From: Candidatus Eiseniibacteriota bacterium
Lineage (GTDB): Bacteria; JAFGKV01
Length of the DNA: 16,833 nt
Reading direction: 5' to 3'
Assembly: GCA_025453925.1 (NCBI GenBank)
Contig: JALOPK010000031.1
Location: 1 to 16,833 of the forward strand
Shown: positions 5,113 through 16,833 of the stretch, piece after piece
Layout: every line of letters starts with the position of its first letter
Numbering within the stretch: the stretch's first letter is position 1
Notes under the pieces: model-generated
The model's database searches: none
The model's input: the letters and a program-made list of their open reading frames with translations, nothing else
What the model was told of the DNA's origin: nothing
Position numbers and translations under genes: made by a program

Positions 5113-6039
5113 TCAGCCTGCTGCGGGCGTCTCCGGGGAGCTCATCGCGGGCGCCAGGCTCACCTGATCACCTGCCCGCACGCCGCAGAGGGACGAGGCG
5201 CTCGCCATGTTGGCGGCGACTTCGACCACGCCTTCAGCATTCACCAGCACCACCAGTTCTCGCTCTCGAACGTCGCCATATGTCATGCCAACTCTCACAG
5301 GAAACGCCACATTGCCGACGACCATGGTGAATTCGTCACGCGCATGAAGGCTGGCCGCCATCGCGGCGGGGATATTGCTGATGAGGTTGCCGTAGCGGTC
5401 TACATGCACAACCTCTCCGGTGAGCGTGTCGCCGCGAACCGCGGGCGCAGTCTCATCCAGCCGCACGAGAGTCGCGGGATCAAACGACGGCCCGACGGCC
5501 GCCGGATCAAGCCCACGACCGAGGTGGGCGGCGATCGGCCCGAAGATGTCCCGGCCGTGGAAGGTCGCGGACTCGGGCCGCACCAGTTCGCCGTTGGTGA
5601 TCTCGTAGGCGGAAGAGATATCCATCACGTGCATGACCTTGGTGAACAGGCCGTTGTCCGGCCCCACGAACAGAGTGCCATCGGTCGCCCGAAGGACGAC
5701 CGGCCGCCGCGCCGTCCCCACTCCCGGATCGACGATGGTCACGAAAACGGTACCAGCGGGATACGCTGGGGCGGCTTGGGCGAGCAGGTAGGAACCTTCC
5801 CGAATGTCGAACGGCTCGACCTCGTGGGTGATCGTGGATATGTGCGCCTCCGGATCGATCCGCAGGATCGAACCCTCCAGCACGCCGGCGTAGAAGTCCC
5901 GGGTGCCATAGTCGGTAATGACGGCAATCACGTGGGGAGGTTCGGCATCCGTACGGCAACCTGCGCCAAGCGCAAGCAGTCCCCACGCGAGGGTGGTAGA
6001 CGAGAGACAGCGACGCACTCGTGAGGAGTGACCGGCCAT
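5113..6039 (-). CDS. SAM hydroxide adenosyltransferase (DUF62; SAM hydrolase) with N-terminal export signal
   Basis: The family splits S-adenosylmethionine with hydroxide to adenosine and methionine; relatives are the chlorinase SalL and the fluorinase. The 308-residue product shows [16 protein letters not shown] (38-53), [13 protein letters not shown] with Arg80, TIVDPGVGT (101-109), [10 protein letters not shown] (123-132) and [15 protein letters not shown] with His161, followed by a C-terminal barrel domain with [17 protein letters not shown]. Residues 1-28 look like a signal peptide: Arg-rich start, hydrophobic [14 protein letters not shown], then Cys28. The lipobox is imperfect (Leu at -4), so lipidation is uncertain. 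The start at 6039 follows GAAGGGAG; the longer frame to 6156 reads unlike protein. It is divergent from nikR. An exported version is odd because SAM is cytoplasmic. Confidence 0.88.
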
Positions 6040-6220
6040 GCGGCTCCCTTCTGGCAAGGGGGGGCGATACCCCGAATCGAAGCGAAGCGGCGCTCGCCGG
6101 AGCAATCGGCACGGCGCCTGCCTCCGCCATAGTGGGGCGAGAGGAATGGAGGACACAAAGTCCGCATTGATGCCGAGGGCCGCAAGCAGAGAGGAGCAGA
6201 CACCGTCTCGACCGCGGCGA

Positions 6221-6295: not shown

Positions 6296-6718
6296 ATGAA
6301 GACAGAACAAGAGACCGTCAGGTTTGGCGTGTCGTTGCCGCAGGAGTTGCTTCGCGAACTCGATGAACGGATTGTAGCCCGGGGTTACTCGTCCCGCTCT
6401 GAATTCATCCGGGATCTGATACGGGCTCAGCTCGTCGAGGAGAAGTGGCGGACCGGGTCTGAGCCCGTGGTAGGCGTGCTCTCCATCGTGTATGACCACC
6501 ACCAACGTGACCTGGTGAATCGGATCATGGACGCGCAACACGCCCATTACGTGCAGACCGTCTGCACGACCCACGTCCACCTCGATCACGACAACTGCCT
6601 CGAGGTCATCATTATCCAAGGCAAGGCCGAAGAGATCGAGAGACTCAACATCGAGATCAGCGGGCTTCGGGGGGTGCGGTTCGCCGAGCTGACTCGCGCG
6701 TCCAAGGTCGAGATATAG
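6296..6718 (+). CDS. nikR: Nickel-responsive transcriptional regulator NikR
   Basis: NikR is a tetrameric ribbon-helix-helix repressor that senses Ni(II), usually controlling nickel uptake. The product has 140 residues, a normal length. The N-terminal ribbon-helix-helix is [19 protein letters not shown] with [14 protein letters not shown] after it. The ACT-like metal domain keeps all four square-planar ligands by spacing: His82 in AQHAHY, His93 and His95 in THVHLDHDN, and Cys101. The start follows AAGGAGG (6283-6289) at 6-bp spacing. The promoter and palindrome are just upstream. The nearest candidate targets are its own promoter, the divergent SAM hydrolase and the metal-uptake operon from 8902, though no classical NikR operator was found there. 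Confidence 0.95.
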
Positions 6719-7005: not shown

Positions 7006-8457
7006 ATGAAGTCCGGGGTTCTCTTCCGTTTACCTCCGAAGCATCTTCAGCCGATTGTGACGCGCCTCCTCGTTCTGGTTCTGCCGCTCACCCTCCAGGC
7101 GCAGCCCCCCGGATGGGAGGTCGAAACCGTCGATGGGCCTGACAGCACCGGATATGAGACGTCACTGAGACTCGACGCAACCGGCCATCCTCACGTGGCC
7201 TATCGCGGATGGGGAGGCATGAACGTGCGGTACGCTCACAAGGATCCGGCGGGCTGGCACGTCGAGGCAGTCGACACGGCGGGAACAGCAACCGCGCTGG
7301 CTCTGGGTCCGGACGGGACCTGCCACGTCACCTACGGTCATCTCACCCTCCCCTTGCCCGAAGTCAGCTTCGTGAAGCATGCCGAGCGCGACGATTCGGG
7401 CTGGACGATTGAGACGGTGGACACGGAGGAGTATGTGGGACTTGGCACGTCTGTCGCATTGGATGACGGGGGAAACCCCCACGTCGGCTACTGCCGCTCG
7501 GCGTGGACCCCGAATGGATATGTCCCCCAAGACCCCAAGTACGCCTGGCGAGACGGGCGCGGCTGGCACATCGAGGCAATTGACGACGGAGGTAGCTCAG
7601 GGGCCTACGCGTCGGTCGCACTGGAGCCGTCTGGCGTCGCCCACATGGCCTACTGCACGATGATCAGCTACGCGTCCATCAGCGTGCCGGACCGGCTCAG
7701 GCATGCGACGAGAACCGCATCCGGGTGGGTCGTGGAGACACTCACCCCCGAGTTGTACTCGCGATGCGAGTCACCCTCCTTGGCGCTGGACGCAGCGGGT
7801 GCACCGCATATCGCCTACACGCGGGGCGGCGAAAGCCTCTGGTATGCAGTGAAAGGGCCCGCGGGGTGGGTCTTCGAGGTGGCGGACGATTCACCCGCAA
7901 CGGACTATCTGGGGTACGTCTCGTTGGCCCTTGATCCTGCGGGCTTTCCCCATATCTCCTATTACCGGAGTTCCCAGGGTCTCAAGTACGCCTACCGCGA
8001 TCCCGCCGGATGGCATGTCATCATCGTCGACACGACGGGTGAGGTGGGCCTCTGCGCCTCGATTCAACTCGGGCCGTTGTGCCGCCCCCGCATCAGCTTC
8101 TGGGACTGGACGAACTTCGACCTGAAGTACGCCCAGGGCCCGCCCACCATGCCCCTTGTGGGAGCGATCAGCGGTGGCCAGTTCGACCTGTGGTGGATTC
8201 CGGCGGATGAGGCAGCCGCGTTCTGGCTGTTCGGGGCGCCAAACGATGCCCACTTCGTCGCCGGGACGGCGCCGGACTTTGAACATCGCCTGGCGGTGCT
8301 GCCTCCCTCAGTAGCCGCCTGGTCCAGTCCGAATGGCGTGTACGACCCGGGCAACGAGTGGACCTACCTTCTCATCCCCGTCGACGCGGCGGATCAGGAA
8401 ATCACCCGTTCGAACCGGCTTGGCGAACGGGACACTGAGTGGGAGATACCATGGTAG
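7006..8457 (+). CDS. Secreted seven-bladed beta-propeller protein with C-terminal FnIII-like domain
   Basis: A 483-residue protein of unknown function. Residues 14-33 form a hydrophobic signal peptide ending LQAQ. From about 35 to 377 a unit of roughly 50 residues repeats, with pattern GW-x-VE-x-VD, then S-x-x-LD-x-x-G-x-PH-x-x-Y, then L-x-YA. I count seven copies of the PH-x-x-Y motif, at about residues 62, 107, 158, 212, 267, 315 and a degenerate one at 361, consistent with seven blades. Residues 378-475 resemble a fibronectin type III or Ig-like domain common at the end of secreted proteins in such bacteria. The ATG at 7006 has a modest AAAGG upstream. It stands alone. Binding partner unknown; extracellular display or polymer binding would be inference. 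Confidence 0.82.
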   Translation: MKSGVLFRLPPKHLQPIVTRLLVLVLPLTLQAQPPGWEVETVDGPDSTGYETSLRLDATGHPHVAYRGWGGMNVRYAHKDPAGWHVEAVDTAGTATALALGPDGTCHVTYGHLTLPLPEVSFVKHAERDDSGWTIETVDTEEYVGLGTSVALDDGGNPHVGYCRSAWTPNGYVPQDPKYAWRDGRGWHIEAIDDGGSSGAYASVALEPSGVAHMAYCTMISYASISVPDRLRHATRTASGWVVETLTPELYSRCESPSLALDAAGAPHIAYTRGGESLWYAVKGPAGWVFEVADDSPATDYLGYVSLALDPAGFPHISYYRSSQGLKYAYRDPAGWHVIIVDTTGEVGLCASIQLGPLCRPRISFWDWTNFDLKYAQGPPTMPLVGAISGGQFDLWWIPADEAAAFWLFGAPNDAHFVAGTAPDFEHRLAVLPPSVAAWSSPNGVYDPGNEWTYLLIPVDAADQEITRSNRLGERDTEWEIPW

Positions 8458-8609: not shown

Positions 8610-8777
8610 AACCGATCTAGCAGCATAGCTGGCCGGGGATGCAACGACGATCGAATACGATCGCATTTGTGAATCCGAGTACCAAGTGCGGCTTGGATGG
8701 CGGTGACAGGCGCACCCGTGCTCGCGCCTCCCAACACGGGACGCGCCTACTCACGTAGGGTTCTGGATGAAAGCACC

Positions 8778-8809: not shown

Positions 8810-8901
8810 GCCAGCGCACCTTTCGTAACACGAAGTTGACGAACGTGCCACGGACCATTCCTTCTCCTGCTTGTATTCAGTGGCTACCAGGAGATCATGC
8901 A

Positions 8902-9513
8902 ATGGAACGTGTTCGGTTTTTCGATGATCTTGCGGATCGCTGGGATGACGTCTGTGACATCAAACGCGTGGCGGCATCCATCCGGGCGGGATTGGCCGGA
9001 ATGGGCATCCGTCCCTCGGAATGCATTGTCGACATCGGCTGCGGCACAGGAACGCTGCTGCGCTGCCTGCTTGATGTACTTGGCCCGGAGGGCCGAGTTC
9101 ACGCCGTTGACATCTCGCCGAGGATGATCGAGAGGGCCAGGGCAAAGATCGTTGACCCGCGGGTGTCGTTCACCGTCACATCTGCTGACCGTCTACCGGT
9201 CCCCGACGCTTCGGTTGATCGCGTCTTCTGTTTCTCATGCTGGCCACACATCGACCAGCCCGAACCTGTCCTCGCGGAGTTTGCGCGGGTGCTCCGGGCG
9301 GGCGGCACGGTCTCCATCTGGCATGCGGACGGCAAGGAGATCATCAACGGAATCCACCAGAACGCCGGCGAAGCCGTGGCCAGCGATGTTCTGGAGCCCG
9401 GGGAGGAGCTGGCGGGCCTTCTGCGTGACCGGGGATTCGACGTCCGCGAAGTGATTGATGTGCCCAGCGAGTATCGCGTGTCCGCGACGCGGGGCGCGGG
9501 ACGGAAGCCGTGA
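8902..9513 (+). CDS. Class I SAM-dependent methyltransferase, first gene of the metal-uptake operon
   Basis: A 203-residue Rossmann-fold methyltransferase. Motif I is VDIGCGTG (43-50), the acidic loop is AVDISPRMIERAR (68-80), and ADRLPVPDASVDRVFC (95-110) is the adenine-side region. The C-terminal part has HADGKEIINGIHQ (141-153), with two His that may bind substrate or metal; Cys110, Cys113 and His116 cluster after motif IV. The ATG at 8902 has AGGAG 8 bp upstream; a TTG-initiated longer form from 8836 adds residues without family likeness. It overlaps the ECF T gene by 4 bp (GTGA), so translation is coupled and a shared task is likely. Methyl acceptor unknown; modification of a small chelator or precursor is speculation. 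Confidence 0.85.
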   Translation: MERVRFFDDLADRWDDVCDIKRVAASIRAGLAGMGIRPSECIVDIGCGTGTLLRCLLDVLGPEGRVHAVDISPRMIERARAKIVDPRVSFTVTSADRLPVPDASVDRVFCFSCWPHIDQPEPVLAEFARVLRAGGTVSIWHADGKEIINGIHQNAGEAVASDVLEPGEELAGLLRDRGFDVREVIDVPSEYRVSATRGAGRKP

Positions 9514-10286
9514 CCTGCGGCGCGATGGCGTCTCGGGATTCACCAGGCGGGATGCCGCGATCTCCCCTTCGAACGATCGATGCCCGGGCTAGAATACTCG
9601 CGTTCTCTCTCTCGCTGATCGTCGCCGTGAGTGCCGTGGGCAGCTCGCCTGTCACTCTTGCAGCCCTGTGTGTGTTTCCGACCCTTTTGATCCTCGTGGC
9701 GCGGGTGCCATGGAAGACCATCCTCCGCCGCCTCTCGTTCGTCGGGGCGTTCATCGTGTTGGCGGGGGTATTCACCTTCGTGGTTCCTCTCACCGCGCGA
9801 CCGTCCCCCGCGCGTTTCTGGTTTCTCCTCTTTGGCAGCCTGTTCGCCGTGATCAGTACCGCGACAGTCGCATACTCCACCACGGCCACCGAAGCCATGG
9901 AAGCGCTTCAACGGCTCCGGATCCCGCACCACGTGATCTGGACCGGCGCTCTCGGCCTCCGCTATCTGCCCCTGGTGTTCGGTGAGGGCAAGAAGGTCCA
10001 CCGAGCCGCACAGGCCCGCGGCTGGGGTCAGGGAGTGACATGCGCCACCGGGAGGTCTGTCACATGTCACTCCCTAACCCCAATCGGATGGATGACTGCA
10101 TCCCTGATGTCGCGGGGCTTCGATCGGGCGTTGCGGACGGGCGAGGCCATGGAAGCCAGGGGGTTCGGGTCTAACAAGGTGGTCCTTGAGCCATGCCCCC
10201 TGAAGGCCCGTGACTGGGTGGTCATGGCAGGATACCCCGGGGTATTGCTGGCAGTACGACTGCTGCTGCATGGGGTCGCGTCGTGA
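9510..10286 (+). CDS. ecfT: ECF transporter T component (CbiQ/EcfT family)
   Basis: This is the inner-membrane coupling subunit that joins the substrate-binding S protein to the ATPase pair. It has 258 residues and about five hydrophobic helices, with RYLPLVFGEGKKVHRAAQARG (ARG at 169-171) and a second coupling motif, AMEARGF (ARG at 216-218). The GTG start overlaps the methyltransferase stop; in-frame ATGs at 9525 and 9552 are alternatives that keep the DARARILA opening. Between the two ARG motifs residues 172-191 are encoded by a 58-bp hairpin (10024-10081), replacing the usual hydrophilic linker. The frame stays open through it, so the protein is probably made. It overlaps the ATPase gene by 4 bp. 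Confidence 0.9.
   Translation: MTCGAMASRDSPGGMPRSPLRTIDARARILAFSLSLIVAVSAVGSSPVTLAALCVFPTLLILVARVPWKTILRRLSFVGAFIVLAGVFTFVVPLTARPSPARFWFLLFGSLFAVISTATVAYSTTATEAMEALQRLRIPHHVIWTGALGLRYLPLVFGEGKKVHRAAQARGWGQGVTCATGRSVTCHSLTPIGWMTASLMSRGFDRALRTGEAMEARGFGSNKVVLEPCPLKARDWVVMAGYPGVLLAVRLLLHGVAS
10024..10081. repeat. 58-bp hairpin element lying in frame inside the ECF T gene
   Basis: GGGGTCAGGGAGTGACATG (10024-10042) is the reverse complement of 10063-10081 except for one base, so 18 of 19 positions pair; the loop is 20 bp. This size and long arms look like a small mobile palindrome (REP- or MITE-like) rather than a coding accident. It encodes about 19 residues with no stop. No other copy is seen in the window. 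Confidence 0.8.
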
Positions 10287-11068
10287 CCCAGCCTTCCCTC
10301 GCCATCAACGGCGTCAGCTTCACCTACCCTGACGGCACGCGTGCCCTCGACAACCTCTCCGTGACGGTTACGTCCGGTGACCGGGTCGCCATCCTGGGCC
10401 CCAATGGTGCGGGCAAGTCGACCTTGCTCCACGCCGTGCTGGGCTTCCTGTCGCCCGCCGAAGGCTCGATCGAGGTCCACGGGCTACCGGTCGACCGTTC
10501 GAACCTGGCCGAGATCCGACGGCGAGTCGGCATCGTGTTCCAGGATCCCGACGATCAGCTCTTCTGCCCAACGCTTCTGGACGACATACGGTTCGGCCCC
10601 CGGAACCAGGGGCTCTCCGGTGCCGAGCTGGATGGGCGGGTGCATGCCGCCCTGGACGCCGTGGGGTTGGGAGACCGTCGTGACCGGCATCCCCACCACT
10701 TGAGCGTCGGCGAAAAGAAACGCGGCGCGCTGGCAACGGTGCTGGCCATGCGGCCCGAGATACTGCTGCTCGATGAGCCCTCGGCCCATCTTGATGGTCC
10801 CTCGCGGCGTGGGTTGAGCGAGGTGCTCTCCCGATACGGGGGCACGATCGTGCTCGTCAGCCAGGATCTGCCATTCGTCGGTGCGCTATGTACCCGGGCC
10901 GTGGTTATCGAGTCGGGCCGCCTCGCGCTCGACGTTCGCGTGGATGACCTGCTCAAAGACCCGAAGCGTCTCGAGCAGCTTGGGGTGCCGGCCTTGGAGC
11001 TCTGCGCTCTCTGCGCCGCGCACGGCTGGAATCGCCCGAGGGAGGAGTTCAATGGCCCCTGTGCATAG
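10283..11068 (+). CDS. ecfA: ECF transporter ATPase (CbiO/NikO-like)
   Basis: This is the energising ABC ATPase of the ECF module. It has 261 residues: Walker A GPNGAGKST (39-47), Q-loop VFQDPDDQLFCPT with Gln87, signature LSVGEKKR (140-147), Walker B ILLLDEP (160-166) and D-loop SAHLD. The DPDDQLF and GEKKR forms are typical of metal-type CbiO/NikO proteins. The switch (H-loop) histidine, expected in a V-T-H-D sequence, is Gln194 here (LVSQDLPF). With only one ATPase gene in the operon, a homodimer would lack both switch His, which may reduce turnover. The GTG start overlaps the T gene stop by 4 bp, and the 3' end overlaps the S gene by 17 bp. Confidence 0.93.
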   Translation: MTQPSLAINGVSFTYPDGTRALDNLSVTVTSGDRVAILGPNGAGKSTLLHAVLGFLSPAEGSIEVHGLPVDRSNLAEIRRRVGIVFQDPDDQLFCPTLLDDIRFGPRNQGLSGAELDGRVHAALDAVGLGDRRDRHPHHLSVGEKKRGALATVLAMRPEILLLDEPSAHLDGPSRRGLSEVLSRYGGTIVLVSQDLPFVGALCTRAVVIESGRLALDVRVDDLLKDPKRLEQLGVPALELCALCAAHGWNRPREEFNGPCA

Positions 11069-11570
11069 CGCCCGCGAGGTCGCCATCGGCGGCCTCTTCC
11101 TCGCTTTGGCCCTGGCGCTCCCCCCGCTCTTCCATCTCATGGGTTTGGGGTCGGTCTTCCTGCCCATGCTGCTGCCCGTGATCAGCGTGGGCTTTCTCAC
11201 GAGCTGGCGGATCGCCGTGACAGTGGGCTTCCTCGCGCCTCTGATTTCCGGCATGATCACGGGAATGCCGCCCTTCGTGCCACCCATCGCGTTCATGATG
11301 ATGGTCGAGCTGTCGATGCTCGGGCTCATTCCGTCGCTCCTCTACCGCACGCTCCGATGGAACTTCTGGATCGTGCTGGTGCTCACGCTGGTAATCAACC
11401 GAGGCGTCGTGTTTCTCCTTCGCTTCGTCGTCGCCGAGTTCTTCTCCATCCCCGGCATCGCCTACAGCCTCGCCACCGTTACCGCCGGTCTCCCCGGAAT
11501 TGCCCTCATGCTCATCGCCGTGCCCCTGATCGTGAAGACGATTGAACGCGGGACTGCAGGTCGGCGGTAG
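11052..11570 (+). CDS. ECF transporter S component, substrate unassigned
   Basis: This would be the membrane substrate-capture subunit of the ECF module. It has 172 residues and five or six hydrophobic helices. Conserved-looking features are HLMGLGSVFLPMLLPV (28-43), LISGMITGMPPFVPP (64-78) and an ELSMLGL helix. The MHIMEG/MHIPDG N-terminus that carries the metal site in NikM and CbiM is absent, so it is not a classical Ni/Co S protein; the pattern fits the general ECF S fold (PF12822-like). The start follows GAGGGAGGAG. Operon context suggests a metal, a metal complex or a chelator precursor as substrate. Assignment as an S component is fairly secure; substrate is not. Confidence 0.82.
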   Translation: MAPVHSAREVAIGGLFLALALALPPLFHLMGLGSVFLPMLLPVISVGFLTSWRIAVTVGFLAPLISGMITGMPPFVPPIAFMMMVELSMLGLIPSLLYRTLRWNFWIVLVLTLVINRGVVFLLRFVVAEFFSIPGIAYSLATVTAGLPGIALMLIAVPLIVKTIERGTAGRR

Positions 11571-11637
11571 GAACACTCCCGCTCCCTTGCCTGCCCTGCG
11601 TGTGATGCGTAAACTCGACGCCCGAAAGGGCTTCACC

Positions 11638-11907
11638 ATGAGAAACGGCCTCACGTTCACGCTGGCACTGCTGCTCATCGGTGTGGTGGGTGTTGCCATA
11701 CCCCTCCACCACCACGCAGACGGCGAATCGCACGATGACTGTCCGGTCTGCGCGCTACAGGCCGTCGCAGCAGTCCCTGCCATTGCGCCCGCCCTCGCGG
11801 CGGCGACGATCTGCCAGCTCATCAGCGCCCTTCTCCCCGCTCCTCTCCTCCGCACGTTACCTCTCGCCCTCTACGAGGCTCGCGCTCCTCCACTTCTCCC
11901 GGTCTGA
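11638..11907 (+). CDS. Small membrane protein with HHH-x-D-x3-H-DDCPVC motif (DUF2946-like)
   Basis: An 89-residue protein. Residues 4-22 form a hydrophobic segment, directly followed by PLHHHADGESHDDCPVC (23-38): His24-26, Asp28, His32, Asp33-34, Cys35 and Cys38 are all possible metal ligands just outside the membrane. A second hydrophobic stretch covers about 43-72, and the end is short and proline-rich. AAAGGG sits 8 bp before the ATG. It resembles small proteins near metal and TonB uptake genes (DUF2946-type), whose role is not known. It lies 67 bp after the S gene and 65 bp before the porin-like gene. A periplasmic zinc or copper handoff is plausible but unproven. Confidence 0.75.
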   Translation: MRNGLTFTLALLLIGVVGVAIPLHHHADGESHDDCPVCALQAVAAVPAIAPALAAATICQLISALLPAPLLRTLPLALYEARAPPLLPV

Positions 11908-11972
11908 CCACTCGTTCCTGCCCATCCCGCGCAAATCTGCGGGTCGCGTCTCATTTCACATGGAGGAGACTC

Positions 11973-13061
11973 ATGCGAGCATCTCTTGCTCTTCTTGCCG
12001 TCATTGTGTTCTCAACCAGTTCACCTGCCCAACAGATCGGTTCCGCCTTCGGCTACTCAGCGGAGAACCCCGGCATCTCCGCCGTGGGCGAGATCCTGGC
12101 CCGTTACGAGGCCGGGGAGTGGGGTGGCGGCCTTGGCAATGCCGAGTTGGGCTTCCAGGCCCCTATCGACCCCTTCGGTCGCGCCGACATCTTGCTGCAC
12201 TATGCCTCCGGGGTGCTCCACGCCCACCATGAACATGAAGACGAGGAGGAGGAAGCCCACGAACATGGCACCGGTTTCGCCGTCGAGGAAGCACTCATCA
12301 CGCTCACGTCGCTCCCCGGCAAGACCCAGCTTTCCGCCGGCCGCATGCGTTCCCGCATCGGGCTGCTCAATGTGGTGCACCTTCACGATTTCTCGTTCAT
12401 CGAGTACCCCCGCATCATCACCGACTACTGGGGTGAGGAAGGGCTCTCGGTGGACGGCTTGCGCCTCTCGTGGCTCGCGCCGCTGCCATTCTGGACAGAG
12501 GTCGTCGCCGAAGGCCAGCGGACCGGTGTCGAGGATGCGACCAGCTTCGGCACCGGAGGGCTGCACCTCTTCTTCCCCATGGGGGAGAGCGTCGGTCTTG
12601 GCCTGACGGGCTTCGGATACATGGACAAGCCGGCACACGAAGAGACAGAGAACAATGAACCCCAGGACTGGGGACTGAACGGCTGGGGCACGGGATTCCG
12701 CCTCAAGTGGGTGCCGCCGGAACGGGCGCTCTACACGCATGTTCTGCTGCAGGCCGAGCTGATGTCACGGGCCGTCCATGAAGACGATCTCTTCGGCTTC
12801 TACGCCATGACCGAATACAAGTTCACCCGCCGATGGGCGGCGGGGGCCATGTTCGAGCACAATGAACACCTTCACCAGCACGGCGAGGAGACCGAGACGG
12901 AAGAACAGTCATGGGGTTCGCTGGCAGTCTCCTACCAGCCGAGCGAGTTCCAGCGCATGCGGGCGCAGTTCGATCTCCCGGTGGACGTCGAAGAGGCCGA
13001 TAGCCGGGTGACATTGCAGTGGACTTTCCTGATCGGCCCCCACAAGCCGCATTCGTACTGA
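11973..13061 (+). CDS. His-rich outer-membrane porin-like protein
   Basis: A 362-residue exported protein, probably a beta-barrel. Residues 1-19 are a signal peptide ending SSPAQ. Many alternating aromatic/glycine strands follow, and a final VTLQWTFLIG strand precedes the terminal PHKPHSY. Two polar insertions look like metal-binding loops: HAHHEHEDEEEEAHEHG (83-99, six His) and HNEHLHQHGEE (296-306, four His). Further His lie at 136, 138 and 222. The start has GGAGGAG 5 bp upstream. It sits 10 bp before the metal-binding protein gene, so it very likely serves the same uptake path, either as an ion-gathering porin or as a surface metal trap. Sequence family beyond porin-like is not recognised. 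Confidence 0.75.
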   Translation: MRASLALLAVIVFSTSSPAQQIGSAFGYSAENPGISAVGEILARYEAGEWGGGLGNAELGFQAPIDPFGRADILLHYASGVLHAHHEHEDEEEEAHEHGTGFAVEEALITLTSLPGKTQLSAGRMRSRIGLLNVVHLHDFSFIEYPRIITDYWGEEGLSVDGLRLSWLAPLPFWTEVVAEGQRTGVEDATSFGTGGLHLFFPMGESVGLGLTGFGYMDKPAHEETENNEPQDWGLNGWGTGFRLKWVPPERALYTHVLLQAELMSRAVHEDDLFGFYAMTEYKFTRRWAAGAMFEHNEHLHQHGEETETEEQSWGSLAVSYQPSEFQRMRAQFDLPVDVEEADSRVTLQWTFLIGPHKPHSY

Positions 13062-13071
13062 GGCTGGCCCG

Positions 13072-13965
13072 ATGAAGTTCGCGGCGGTTCTCCTGCTCCT
13101 GCTGGCTGTCCCGGGCGTAGCCAAGCCTCTGGTGGTGGCGACCACGGAGGACCTTGCCTCCATCGCCACAGCCATCGCGGGCGACGAACTGGCGGTCGAT
13201 TTCCTGGCTCCCGGCTCGGCCAACACTCATGCCATCGAACTGAAGCCCTCGTACGCCATGAAGCTGGTCAAGGCCAGGGCCGTCATCAGGATGGGCCTTG
13301 GGCTCGACAACTGGGTTCTGTCTCTCATCGACAATGCTCGCAACCGCGCACTGGTGCCCGGTGCCCCGGGCCACATCGACGCCTCGGAGGGCTGCTCGAT
13401 TCTCGACGTGCCCACGGATGCGGTGGATCGCTCCATGGGCGACGTCCACCCATTCGGCAACCCCCACTACCTGCTGGACCCGGCCAACGGTCTGGTGGTG
13501 GCGCGGAACCTCTCGCAACGTTTCTCAGCCCTCTTTCCCGCCTCGGAGGCCGCCTTCAGGAGAAACCTCGCTGCATTCGAGGTCGCCTACGAGGCGAAAC
13601 AACAGGAATGGGGGCCGATGGTCGCACAACTGCGTGGCGTCAAGGTCGTCACCTACCATCGAATGTGGGGATACTTCGCCCGGTTCTCGGGAATCGATCC
13701 AGTGGCGGAGATTGAGCCCAAGCCGGGGATTCCTCCGACTGCCAGCCATACACGCCAGGTCATCGATCTCATGAGGGCGCAGGCCGTGAAACTGATCGTT
13801 CGATCCCCGTTCTATGAGTCCAAGACACCCGAGTCCATGGCTGCCCAAACCGGCGCGAAGGTCGTCACCTTGGCGCCACAGGTCGGCGCGCTGCCGGAGG
13901 TGACCGACTACTGGGCAATGTTCGACATCAACCTGAGGCGGCTCGTGGGAGCCCAGGGAGGTTGA
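13072..13965 (+). CDS. Cluster A-I metal ABC transporter substrate-binding protein (ZnuA-like)
   Basis: This is the periplasmic receptor of the ABC importer. It has 297 residues with a signal peptide (1-17, ending PGVA). Likely ligands are His53 in NTHAIELKPS, His132 in GNPHYLLDP (His126 is nearby) and His196 in TYHRMWGYF. The usual fourth ligand, the Asp of an L-D-P motif near the C-terminus, reads L-A-P here (Ala268); Asp279 in TDYWAMFD may take over. There is no long His-rich loop as in Gram-negative ZnuA; the His-rich segments are on the neighbouring porin-like protein instead. Zinc is the most likely metal, manganese second. The gene starts 10 bp after the porin-like gene and ends 7 bp before the ATPase gene. 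Confidence 0.9.
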   Translation: MKFAAVLLLLLAVPGVAKPLVVATTEDLASIATAIAGDELAVDFLAPGSANTHAIELKPSYAMKLVKARAVIRMGLGLDNWVLSLIDNARNRALVPGAPGHIDASEGCSILDVPTDAVDRSMGDVHPFGNPHYLLDPANGLVVARNLSQRFSALFPASEAAFRRNLAAFEVAYEAKQQEWGPMVAQLRGVKVVTYHRMWGYFARFSGIDPVAEIEPKPGIPPTASHTRQVIDLMRAQAVKLIVRSPFYESKTPESMAAQTGAKVVTLAPQVGALPEVTDYWAMFDINLRRLVGAQGG

Positions 13966-13972
13966 GAACGCC

Positions 13973-14680
13973 GTGATCGAGCTTCGCGACGTCACGTTGG
14001 GGTATGGCTCCCATGTTGTCGTCGCCGGGGTGTCATTTCGCGTGGAGCGCGGCGAAATCGCCGCGCTCCTTGGCCCCAATGGCGCTGGCAAGACCACGTT
14101 GTTGCGGGCGCTCCTCGGAGAGCTCAAGCCCCGCTCAGGCCATGTGGTGAGGGATCCCAAACTACGAATCGGCTATGTGCCTCAGGTTGACGTCGAGGGC
14201 AGCTTCTGGCCGATGAGGGTGCGGGATTTCGTCAGGCTCTTCTCCCGGGACGACGTGGCCGTTGAGACCGCATTGGCAGGTGTGGGCATCAGCGAACTCG
14301 CCGACAGAGACCTACAGGATCTGTCCGGCGGGCAACGCCAGAAGGTTCTCCTCGCCAAGGCTTTGGCCAACGAACCGAACGTGTTGTTGCTCGACGAGCC
14401 TACCCAGGGCATGGACGTGGCATCTGAATCGGACTACCTCGACCTCCTGGAGGACCTACACCGAAGCGGCATGACCATCGTGCTCGTCACCCATCTGCTG
14501 CACGTGGCGCTGTCCGTTGCCCGCATCATGGTACTAGTCGACCGCGGCCAGACCCGTGTGACCAGCGTGCGCGAAATCATTGATGGGAAAGTGCTGGATG
14601 CGATCTACGGAAGGCCATTCTCCGGCGCGTCGTTGGGGAACAGCACGGTGCTTGTTCCCGACCGGAGGCCCCGTGACTGA
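13973..14680 (+). CDS. znuC: Metal ABC transporter ATPase (ZnuC-like)
   Basis: A 235-residue ATPase that powers the ABC importer. It carries Walker A GPNGAGKT (34-41), Q-loop YVPQ with Gln71, signature LSGGQRQK (117-124), Walker B VLLLDEPTQGMD (137-148) and switch His174 in VTHLLH; every catalytic element is intact, unlike the ECF ATPase in this operon. The GTG start follows GGAGGTTGAG. The 3' end overlaps the permease gene by 8 bp. Confidence 0.93.
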   Translation: MIELRDVTLGYGSHVVVAGVSFRVERGEIAALLGPNGAGKTTLLRALLGELKPRSGHVVRDPKLRIGYVPQVDVEGSFWPMRVRDFVRLFSRDDVAVETALAGVGISELADRDLQDLSGGQRQKVLLAKALANEPNVLLLDEPTQGMDVASESDYLDLLEDLHRSGMTIVLVTHLLHVALSVARIMVLVDRGQTRVTSVREIIDGKVLDAIYGRPFSGASLGNSTVLVPDRRPRD

Positions 14681-15464
14681 CTTCTTCTCCTATCCGGGCG
14701 CCATGGGCGCCATCGTAGTCGCGGTACTCACCGGGGTGTTCCTATCCCTTCTGGGCATTCCCCTCGTACTGCGCCGCCGTTCCTTCACGGGCGTTGCCTT
14801 AGCCGAGACCGCCGCGTTGGGTGGTGCCCTGGGCGCATGGATGGGCGCCCCGCGGTATGTGACACCATTGCTGCTGGCGGCGGGCGTCCTTGTGCTCCTT
14901 GAGTTGGTGCGAAGCAGGCGGACCGGCGAGGATGGGCCGGTGGCGCTGTGCTATCTTGCCGCTGCCTCCGGCGCCACGCTGTTCGTCTCCAAACTGCCGG
15001 CCGGTGAGGCGGACATGATGTCCCTCCACTTTGGCAACGTCCTTTCCATCAATTCCTCGGATGTGCTGGTGAGCATCGTCGTTGCGGCGGCGGGAATCGT
15101 GCTCTTCTCACTTTGCGCCCGATGCCTGCTGGCGACCCTGAACGACCCCGTCAGCGCCCGGGCAACAGGATTACGGCCCCCTCGCGTGCGGCTTGCGTAC
15201 GCAGCGCTCCTGGCGGTCGGCGTCACGTTCGGGCTGTCGGTTCTTGGCGTGGTGCCGGTGGTGGCCTACCTCGTGGCACCGGCATTCGTGGGATTGCGAG
15301 TGGCGGCGACGGTGCGCGGGTGGGGCATCGCCGCGGCGCTCACGGCCAGCCTCGCTTCGTGCGCTGGCCTGGTGGGATCGTTCGCGCTGGACTTCCCGCC
15401 TGGCCCCTTCGTCGCCTGCCTGCTGGCGCTGGTCGGGTTCGCCGCCTGGGCGGTGAGACGGTAA
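14673..15464 (+). CDS. znuB: Metal ABC transporter permease (ZnuB/ABC-3 family)
   Basis: The inner-membrane channel of the ABC importer, 263 residues with about eight hydrophobic helices, typical of the family. Recognisable parts are RRRSFTGVALAETAALGGALG (35-55), matching the ABC-3 RR-x-SF-x-GDALSHA loop but with Glu-Thr in place of Ser-His, and HFGNVLSINSSDVL (119-132), matching the FGN-x-L-x-x-x-x-x-D signature. The GTG at 14673 is chosen because GGAGG precedes it and the protein family begins there; upstream codons belong to the ATPase gene in another frame. It is the last of the tightly packed genes; the receptor gene follows after 168 bp. Confidence 0.92.
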   Translation: MTDFFSYPGAMGAIVVAVLTGVFLSLLGIPLVLRRRSFTGVALAETAALGGALGAWMGAPRYVTPLLLAAGVLVLLELVRSRRTGEDGPVALCYLAAASGATLFVSKLPAGEADMMSLHFGNVLSINSSDVLVSIVVAAAGIVLFSLCARCLLATLNDPVSARATGLRPPRVRLAYAALLAVGVTFGLSVLGVVPVVAYLVAPAFVGLRVAATVRGWGIAAALTASLASCAGLVGSFALDFPPGPFVACLLALVGFAAWAVRR

Positions 15465-15556
15465 TGCGCACGTCCCGGTCGGCTGACGGCGCGAGTGGCG
15501 CTCTGTAGAGCACGCTTCGTCCTACTTGACCTCCTGCAGCGGCTTCGTTTCCTTTG

Positions 15557-15583
15557 GTGGCACGATTCTGATTTTCGTGCTAC
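15557..15583 (+). promoter_or_regulatory. Stem-loop in the leader of the TonB-dependent receptor gene
   Basis: GTGGCACGA (15557-15565), a 9-base loop, then TCGTGCTAC (15575-15583) pair over 9 bp with one G-U. It ends 50 bases before the ATG. There is no T-run after it, so it is not an obvious terminator. I looked for the B12-box features of a cobalamin riboswitch, common before such receptors, and did not find them. Confidence 0.45.
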
Positions 15584-15632
15584 TGCTCTGCCATCACCGT
15601 AGTCGACATCCAGTCTTTTCGGGAGGTTCCGT

Positions 15633-16833
15633 ATGCTACTCGCTCTCGTTTCCGTTCCCATGCTGCTACTGGCCGGCTCATACCCCGGTGAAATCGACTC
15701 CACGCGGGTGTATGCCATGGATCCGATCGTGGTGACGGGAACGCGGATCGCCACGTTGCGCTCCGAGATCCCCCAGATCGTCTCGGTACTGGGACGGGAG
15801 GAGATCGCGTCCAGCGGCGAATCCAATGTGCTTCCGGCGCTGGGAGAGAGGATTCCCGGCCTCTTCGTGACGGAGCGAGGCGTCACCGGCTTCGGCGTGG
15901 CCGGAGGAGCGGCAGGTGGGATCAGCATCCGCGGTGTCGGCGGCAGCCCGAATACCCAGGTGCTGGTCCTTATCGATGGTCATCCTCAGTTCATGGGGAT
16001 CTTCGGGCATCCTTTGCCCGACGCCTATGTGGCATCCGACATCGAGCGGGTCGAGGTGATCCGCGGCCCCGCGTCCGCGCTCTATGGAACCGGTGCGATG
16101 GGGGGTGCCATCAACCTGATCACGCGCGGCGCAACCGCGGAAGGTCTCGGCTTCGACGGCCGCATGTCACTCGGATCATACGGCACGCAGAAGTACTCAG
16201 GCGGTCTCGGCTACAGGCGGGAGTCCTTCAGCATCCTCGGATCGCTGAATCATGACCGTACCGACGGGCATCGCGGCAACGACGAGTTCGAGATCACCAA
16301 CGGGTATGCGAAGGCCGGCTATGACCTGCGCCCGGGACTGCGGGTCGTTGCCCAGGGAAGCCTGGCCGCGTTCGAGACGAATGACCCAGGCCCGGCAAGC
16401 TCGCCCTATCCGGACAGTACAGTCCATTGGGTGGATATCCAGCGAGGCGAAGCCTCACTCAGCGTGGTCAATGCAGCCTCCCGGATCAACGGAGAAGTGA
16501 AGCTCTTCGGGAACTTCGGCGAACACGAAATCTACGACGGCTTCCATTCGACGGACAGCAATCTCGGCGTCATGGTGTTCCAGGGGCTCAGACTGCTCCC
16601 GAACAACACGGTCACCGTAGGGCTCGACTACAAACACTACGGTGGCGAGGCGGAGAACACCCTCTCGGCTACGCAGATCGGTGATCACACCGTTGACGAA
16701 ATCGGAGGCTATGCGTCAATCCACCACAGCTTCCCCAAGCGACTGGCGCTGAATGCCGGCATCCGCTTCGAGCATCATACCGAGTTCGGCACCGAGACGG
16801 TACCTCAGGCGGGAATAGCCTTACATCCGACCG
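15633..16833 (+). CDS. TonB-dependent outer-membrane receptor, N-terminal 400 residues (cut by window edge)
   Basis: These receptors import scarce metal complexes or cofactors using TonB energy. The start has GGGAGG 6 bp upstream, then a short signal peptide (1-16). A TonB-box-like DPIVVTGTR lies at 30-38. The plug domain (about 40-165) contains ALGERIPGLFVTERG, GGISIRGVGGSPNTQVLVLIDG (96-117) and the signature SDIERVEVIRGPASALYGTGAMGGAINLIT. Barrel strands follow to the edge. Its place after a ZnuABC-like transporter, on the same strand, suggests delivery of the same metal or a metal-chelator complex. Substrate cannot be read from this part. The plug resembles BtuB/CirA-type receptors in general layout, so a cobalamin or siderophore receptor is an alternative. 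Confidence 0.93.
   Translation, partial: MLLALVSVPMLLLAGSYPGEIDSTRVYAMDPIVVTGTRIATLRSEIPQIVSVLGREEIASSGESNVLPALGERIPGLFVTERGVTGFGVAGGAAGGISIRGVGGSPNTQVLVLIDGHPQFMGIFGHPLPDAYVASDIERVEVIRGPASALYGTGAMGGAINLITRGATAEGLGFDGRMSLGSYGTQKYSGGLGYRRESFSILGSLNHDRTDGHRGNDEFEITNGYAKAGYDLRPGLRVVAQGSLAAFETNDPGPASSPYPDSTVHWVDIQRGEASLSVVNAASRINGEVKLFGNFGEHEIYDGFHSTDSNLGVMVFQGLRLLPNNTVTVGLDYKHYGGEAENTLSATQIGDHTVDEIGGYASIHHSFPKRLALNAGIRFEHHTEFGTETVPQAGIALHPT

Follow-up and report, generated by a model that had tools for sequence, protein, structure and literature searches.

Gene content of the locus

The window analysed here, a stretch of 16,833 nucleotides that makes up the whole of contig G000:C309 from a 502-contig metagenome-assembled genome (completeness 82%), carries a metal-uptake locus in which an energy-coupling factor (ECF) transporter and an ATP-binding cassette (ABC) importer of the ZnuABC kind follow one another on the same strand. 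Considering its gene content, synteny and operator-like sequences, and the separability of the two importers in a congeneric genome (G001; Candidatus Fermentibacteria, JAFGKV01), it is quite probable that two independent metal importers have become juxtaposed, a nickel module controlled by the repressor NikR and a separate zinc-type block.

The ECF run opens with a gene for a 203-residue S-adenosylmethionine-dependent methyltransferase (MT; 8902..9513, +; Pfam Methyltransf_25/11), followed by EcfT, a CbiQ-type transmembrane coupling subunit (9510..10286, +; PF02361, 64 bits), EcfA, an ECF ABC ATPase (10283..11068, +; ABC_tran, 112 bits, with ECF ATPases as top NCBIfam matches), and EcfS, an S component with the motif FH...FLPM..P...TGMPP...E (11052..11570, +). 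EcfT overlaps MT by 4 bp, EcfA overlaps EcfT by 4 bp, and EcfS overlaps EcfA by 17 bp. A CbiQ-like EcfT, an EcfA-type ATPase and an S component with the S fold, the elements that define an ECF transporter, are thus all present. The zinc-type block begins with a small secreted His/Cys protein (LHHHADGESHDDCPVC; 11638..11907, +; weak match to PF11162, DUF2946) and continues with a porin-like outer-membrane protein bearing a His/Glu-rich loop (11973..13061, +), a ZnuA-like substrate-binding protein (13072..13965, +; PF01297, 149 bits; top NCBIfam match AztC (zinc), below cut-off), a ZnuC-like ATPase (13973..14680, +; top NCBIfam matches AztA/ZnuC, below cut-off), and a ZnuB-like ABC-3 permease (14673..15464, +; PF00950, 106 bits) overlapping ZnuC by 8 bp. 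Last comes a TonB-dependent receptor (15633..16833, +; NCBIfam TonB matches), assigned to the nickel module and incomplete at the contig end.

Pfam and NCBIfam searches back the CbiQ, ABC ATPase, ZnuA, ABC-3, methyltransferase and TonB receptor assignments, and a re-check of the open reading frames reproduces exactly the frames and the overlaps of 4, 4, 17 and 8 bp given in a preliminary description of this DNA. That description counted nine same-strand genes; the shared strand holds, the number being ten. Its view of a metal-uptake locus with two independent inner-membrane importers is upheld, and its view of a single operon-like unit is not, the TonB receptor having its own 168-bp leader that carries an operator.

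NikR and its candidate operators

Upstream of the ECF genes, outside the interval covered by the preliminary description and not noticed there, lies a gene for a 140-residue NikR-type nickel-responsive repressor (6296..6718, +), which exceeds the cut-offs of NF001884 (196 bits, cut-off 119) and NF003381 (156 bits, cut-off 105) as well as that of NikR_C (PF08753), and is the sole NikR copy in the window's genome. A 27-bp dyad, GTRRCAC-N13-GTGYYAC, precedes both MT and the receptor in the window and in G001. The site at 8825..8851 (GTAACAC-N13-GTGCCAC, no strand assigned) lies 50 bp 5' of the MT start and overlaps a TTGACG hexamer, and that at 15557..15583 (GTGGCAC-N13-GTGCTAC, likewise unstranded) lies 5' of the receptor; the orthologous sites of the congener are at 8708-8734 (MT) and 11455-11481 (receptor) of locus L018. 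In each of the two genomes the derived pattern matches perfectly only at these two sites, a uniqueness that speaks for its specificity and is not an independent discovery, since the pattern was built from the same four sites. The same half-sites make up the published NikR box of delta-proteobacteria, GTGTTAC-[N13/14]-GTAACAC, for which the reversed form GTAACAC-[N13/14]-GTGTTAC is given for Desulfotalea (PMC545781). A NikR gene and an upstream box of the published type, the two marks of a NikR regulon, are therefore found together.

Position lends further weight to these boxes. In a neighbourhood survey of the family to which EcfS belongs (92 distinct loci, 1.26 Mb), a scan with both forms and at most one mismatch returned 25 matches, 24 of them where an S operon, or the NikR or receptor gene belonging to it, begins; those at S operons include Bacillota loci lacking an adjacent NikR and Armatimonadota loci in which a pseudopilin-like gene comes first. 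Matches to the strict GTGTTAC half-site number 11 in the zone immediately 5' of S-operon genes, which makes up 5% of the sequence, and 0 elsewhere, and 20 permuted half-sites gave 0 matches in that upstream zone. The operator search that the preliminary description had called for gave candidate NikR boxes at MT and receptor, with no zinc operator seen in the gap between EcfS and the small His/Cys gene. Within the window, no NikR box was found ahead of the zinc block.

The gene for the pseudopilin-like protein (GFTLIELLVVIAIIAILAAILFPVF ... CPSRPxLPWYYGHGYN) separates the NikR box from EcfS in loci of Armatimonadota and Sumerlaeota and in unclassified ones (L048 7230-7946, L053 7255-7986, L096 141-812, L106 1544-2212, L034 7146-7790), several of which have FmdE downstream. 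The protein is possibly an extracellular component of the nickel regulon.

The S component and its relatives

EcfS scores 22 bits against PF12822, below the cut-off of 30.7, and all 44 of the relatives scanned match this family. Its AlphaFold2 model (mean predicted local distance difference test score 93.6) is matched by Foldseek to ThiT, RibU, FolT and BioY at TM scores of 0.6-0.7, with ThiT/RibU closest (probability 1.0). PF01891, the NikM/CbiM family, is absent from EcfS and from anywhere in the window's genome; with this and the vitamin-type S fold, the earlier statement that the S component is not of the NikM/CbiM type stands. Alignment of the 44 relatives reveals F27, H28, G33, FLPM36-39, P42, M72, P73, E86 and R117 to be invariant, and the helix order suggests that H28, M39, M72 and the region of E86 face outward, where S components open.

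A single pattern scan of GTDB contigs yielded at least 509 confirmed relatives of EcfS, among them proteins of the culturable genera Acetobacterium, Tissierella and Clostridium. The genes neighbouring EcfS in the 92 loci are MT (39, counted where adjacent to EcfS and thus excluding the window and G001, in which EcfT and EcfA intervene), NikR (14), TonB receptor (13), EcfA (13), DUF3842 (10), DUF1893 (8) and FmdE (6). The presence of NikR within 4.5 kb of the S gene in 14 of 92 loci compares with 0.08 expected under random placement, a rough expectation since the loci share ancestry. The window's S component falls within a 15-member clade (support 100/98) of Calditrichota, KSB1 and others, most of which have NikR, TonB receptor and MT, usually in the order NikR-[EcfT-EcfA]-receptor-EcfS-MT; NikR is likewise a neighbour in separate branches of Bacillota. 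FmdE genes are reported to lie mostly beside transporters for metal ions, and a mixture of zinc and nickel was bound by one FmdE protein (PMC2954224), so that the FmdE neighbours of the S component fit a metal role. Searches of the open-access literature found no description of this S-component family, of the S-MT-NikR combination, of DUF1893 or of DUF3842.

The NikR boxes and adjacency could reflect a general clustering of metal genes with no bearing on the S component, as the concentration of NikR adjacency in one clade might suggest. Nevertheless, boxes stand at the start of S operons even in the Bacillota and Armatimonadota loci without adjacent NikR, and the permuted half-sites yield no such matches, so this explanation appears extremely unlikely.

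In a sample of 145 genomes, which also served for the porin and PF00374 counts below, CbiM/NikM is present in 1 of the 15 with the S component compared with 42 of 145 overall (p = 0.03, a small sample). This rarity is what replacement of CbiM/NikM by the S component would predict, and is suggestive only. PF00374 was tried as a marker of co-occurrence with nickel enzymes and dropped as uninformative, since 75 of the 145 genomes match it, many probably through complex I subunits.

A different cargo must also be weighed: instead of nickel or a nickel complex, the S component under NikR control would transport an organic molecule, either a corrinoid or a vitamin or cofactor precursor that nickel enzymes need. 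Its vitamin-type fold closest to ThiT/RibU, the companion methyltransferase, and a TonB receptor whose best profile match is BtuB-like would all be in keeping with this. However, no riboswitch of any kind, cobalamin included, was found in nine loci (the window and relatives), NikR and FmdE are neighbours, and the S component has invariant His, Met and Glu residues and appears to replace CbiM/NikM rather than accompany it. An organic cargo is accordingly judged decidedly unlikely. The specific case of a B12 or corrinoid cargo was rejected, as the loci have NikR instead of a cobalamin riboswitch.

The methyltransferase and the TonB receptor

MT has three invariant histidines (H116, H141 and H152, from an alignment of 39 homologues), two of which directly follow the fourth and fifth strands. 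These strands line the active sites of class I methyltransferases. Its closest solved relatives are, at family level only, plant phosphoethanolamine methyltransferases, and its score against the DVU_1556 family (NF045667) is 68.6 bits, below the cut-off of 155. The receptor is 75.8% identical to a 614-residue receptor located directly 3' of EcfS in G001. Against the BtuB model TIGR01779 the incomplete protein of the window reaches 71 bits and the complete receptor of locus L021 137 bits, both below the cut-off of 600.

The zinc-type block and its separateness

PF01297 and PF00950 both exceed their cut-offs and are joined by a ZnuC-type ATPase, placing the second importer in the zinc importer family. 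Scores fall below the NCBIfam zinc equivalog cut-offs (AztC 84/350, AztA 163/220, AztB 91/280 bits), so we infer the metal of this block, zinc being the probable cargo of the small His protein, porin and ZnuABC.

Comparison with the congener separates this block from its surroundings. G001 has the gene order MT-EcfT-EcfA-EcfS-TonB receptor, the receptor coming straight after EcfS and no Znu genes being present; identities to the window are 72% (EcfT), 75% (EcfA), 88% (EcfS) and 76% (receptor). The porin is absent from the G001 genome, and its only ZnuA is a distant 24% homologue on another contig; a second, distant ZnuA also occurs elsewhere in the window's genome. The porin-like protein, which has no Pfam match, has homologues in 28 of the 145 sampled genomes, and in all 16 of the loci that allow a test ZnuA adjoins it or is only a few genes away, in the absence of this S component. 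The block recurs on its own in other phyla, in relatives often with a small Cys/His open reading frame before the porin (L146, L151, L158, L160), and only in the window's genome is it found between EcfS and receptor. Since the congener lacks the block, and the block recurs without the S component, the island consists of two modules.

The preliminary description regarded the locus as one integrated zinc island, in which ECF, ZnuABC, porin, small His protein, MT and TonB receptor would all be under zinc control. The common strand, the tight spacing, the His-rich proteins and the lack of a terminator found after EcfS are points in its favour, as is a clostridial locus (L095) that also has Znu genes near EcfS-MT. 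Yet the otherwise identical locus of the congener does without the zinc block, the block recurs without ECF-S, NikR boxes occur at MT and receptor only, and behind the Znu operon of L095 come a Fur-like gene of its own and a gap of 200 bp ahead of EcfS. A single zinc island is therefore very unlikely. Neither the notion that the genes act as one system nor that of zinc as cargo of the whole island is sustained, given a congener without Znu genes and NikR boxes that precede MT and receptor, with none at the zinc block. The suggested neighbourhood comparison likewise went against it, homologues of the S component and MT being found elsewhere without Znu genes, beside NikR, FmdE or TonB receptors. 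ECF and ABC-3 importers do lie side by side, as had been pointed out, but the functional link implied does not follow from a juxtaposition in one strain. ECF-Znu adjacency was rejected as a conserved link, the Znu operon of L095 being separate with its own Fur-like gene and the Znu genes of L046 being divergent.

The gap between EcfS and the small His gene is only 67 bp, and a consensus scan of 11570-11638, of a kind that misses most promoters in such phyla, gave no promoter or terminator match; no convincing zinc-operator palindrome was seen there either. In view of this short gap and of the absence of a recognised terminator or zinc operator, the block may have been captured into the nickel operon. 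It would then be co-transcribed from the NikR-controlled MT promoter, and the Znu-like importer would serve nickel or be induced by nickel scarcity, an arrangement that locus L158, with the same block beside CbiM and ECF genes, might be taken to echo. On the other hand, the scan's low sensitivity weakens the argument from the gap, ZnuA is of the zinc-type family, and the receptor keeps its own NikR box; we consider such capture unlikely. With its small His-porin-ZnuABC block adjoining CbiM and ECF genes, L158 (G069:C45) is a second example of the block lying by a nickel/cobalt ECF locus.

A putative route for nickel uptake

The preferred reading, two juxtaposed importers, ascribes to the nickel module NikR (6296-6718), MT-EcfT-EcfA-EcfS (8902-11570) and the TonB receptor (from 15633), which together would take up Ni(II) or a small nickel complex. 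Under the established logic of NikR control, nickel scarcity would lift repression. In the proposed sequence of events, NikR would leave its predicted sites at 8825 and 15557 when nickel is scarce, allowing MT-ecfTAS and the receptor to be made. The receptor would carry nickel or a small nickel complex over the outer membrane, EcfS, with invariant His, Met and Glu residues predicted on its outer face, would capture this cargo, and EcfT/EcfA would power import, so that receptor, S component and ECF motor would suffice for the whole path, with no need of a periplasmic binding protein. MT, putatively cytosolic, may act on the cargo or its ligand, or aid release of the metal. The block of small His protein, porin and ZnuA-C-B (11638-15464), widespread and separate, would have come between EcfS and receptor in this lineage.

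The combination of a vitamin-type fold with a methyltransferase makes a nickel complex plausible as the cargo. It is tentatively suggested that several phyla share an undescribed nickel route, in which a vitamin-type ECF S component takes in nickel as a small complex and not as the bare ion, with a ligand-processing MT and, in double-membraned bacteria, a TonB receptor.

Several observations weigh against a nickel role. NikR is missing from the vicinity of 78 of the 92 S loci, and clostridial S genes are often flanked by DUF1893/DUF3842 (L045, L062, L066, L075, L076, L101, L111 and others), a setting in which the S family, or a subfamily of it, may have more than one cargo or partner. Vitamins tend to be the cargo of S components related to EcfS. 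The scarcity of CbiM among genomes with the S component reaches only p = 0.03, or 0.12 with the 11 strongest S genomes, and NiFe-hydrogenase is not clearly enriched, PF00374 being as widespread as noted above. As for the operators, one-mismatch matches to the GTGTTAC form are genome-wide no commoner than those to a reversed control, so that the argument for NikR boxes rests on position; the boxes of the window depart from the strict consensus at 2 and 3 positions, yet fit the GTRRCAC form conserved in the congener, and NikR binding at these sites is predicted from sequence.

Nickel is required by many anaerobes, among them acetogens, hydrogen metabolisers and uncultured phyla, and some of these have no known nickel importer; organisms that use nickel but for which no transporter had been identified were already noted in earlier surveys (PMC2667541). 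The S component with MT offers an unannotated candidate nickel importer, with a predicted operator, in at least 509 genome contigs. The locus also illustrates that metal importers may lie next to each other in an operon-like run and yet differ in cargo.

Relation to known transporters

The nickel module resembles NikMNQO/CbiMNQO systems under NikR in its CbiQ/CbiO-type A and T subunits, its predicted NikR control, and operator half-sites shared with delta-proteobacterial nikMQO (PMC545781), but its S component is unrelated to NikM/CbiM, NikN/NikL/NikK are missing, and MT and a dedicated TonB receptor are present. With the vitamin S components of PF12822 (ThiT, RibU, FolT, BioY) EcfS shares the six-helix S fold, and it is set apart from them by the invariant FH, FLPM, TGMPP and E positions, by its predicted NikR regulation, and by having no known vitamin context. 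The second block has the ZnuA, ZnuC and ABC-3 permease of ZnuABC/AztABC, differing in the porin-like and small His/Cys proteins that precede them, and stands outside the nickel module. A comparable route without a periplasmic binding protein exists in B12 systems, where a TonB receptor is paired with an S component of the ECF kind (BtuB with BtuM/CbrT-type); here, however, NikR operators take the place of cobalamin riboswitches.

Other features of the window

A (R)-S-adenosyl-L-methionine hydrolase of the DUF62 type (5116-6156, -) is divergent from and adjoins NikR, and no homologue of it was found close to other S loci. Just 5' of the nickel module, positions 7006-8457 encode a 483-residue protein that contains internal repeats, each some 70 residues long (HVAYR/HVTYG motifs), and has a weak Pfam match to DUF7393 only. 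Within EcfT, a 60-bp imperfect inverted repeat (10023-10082) gives rise to an in-frame insertion of 11 residues that the congener's EcfT lacks.

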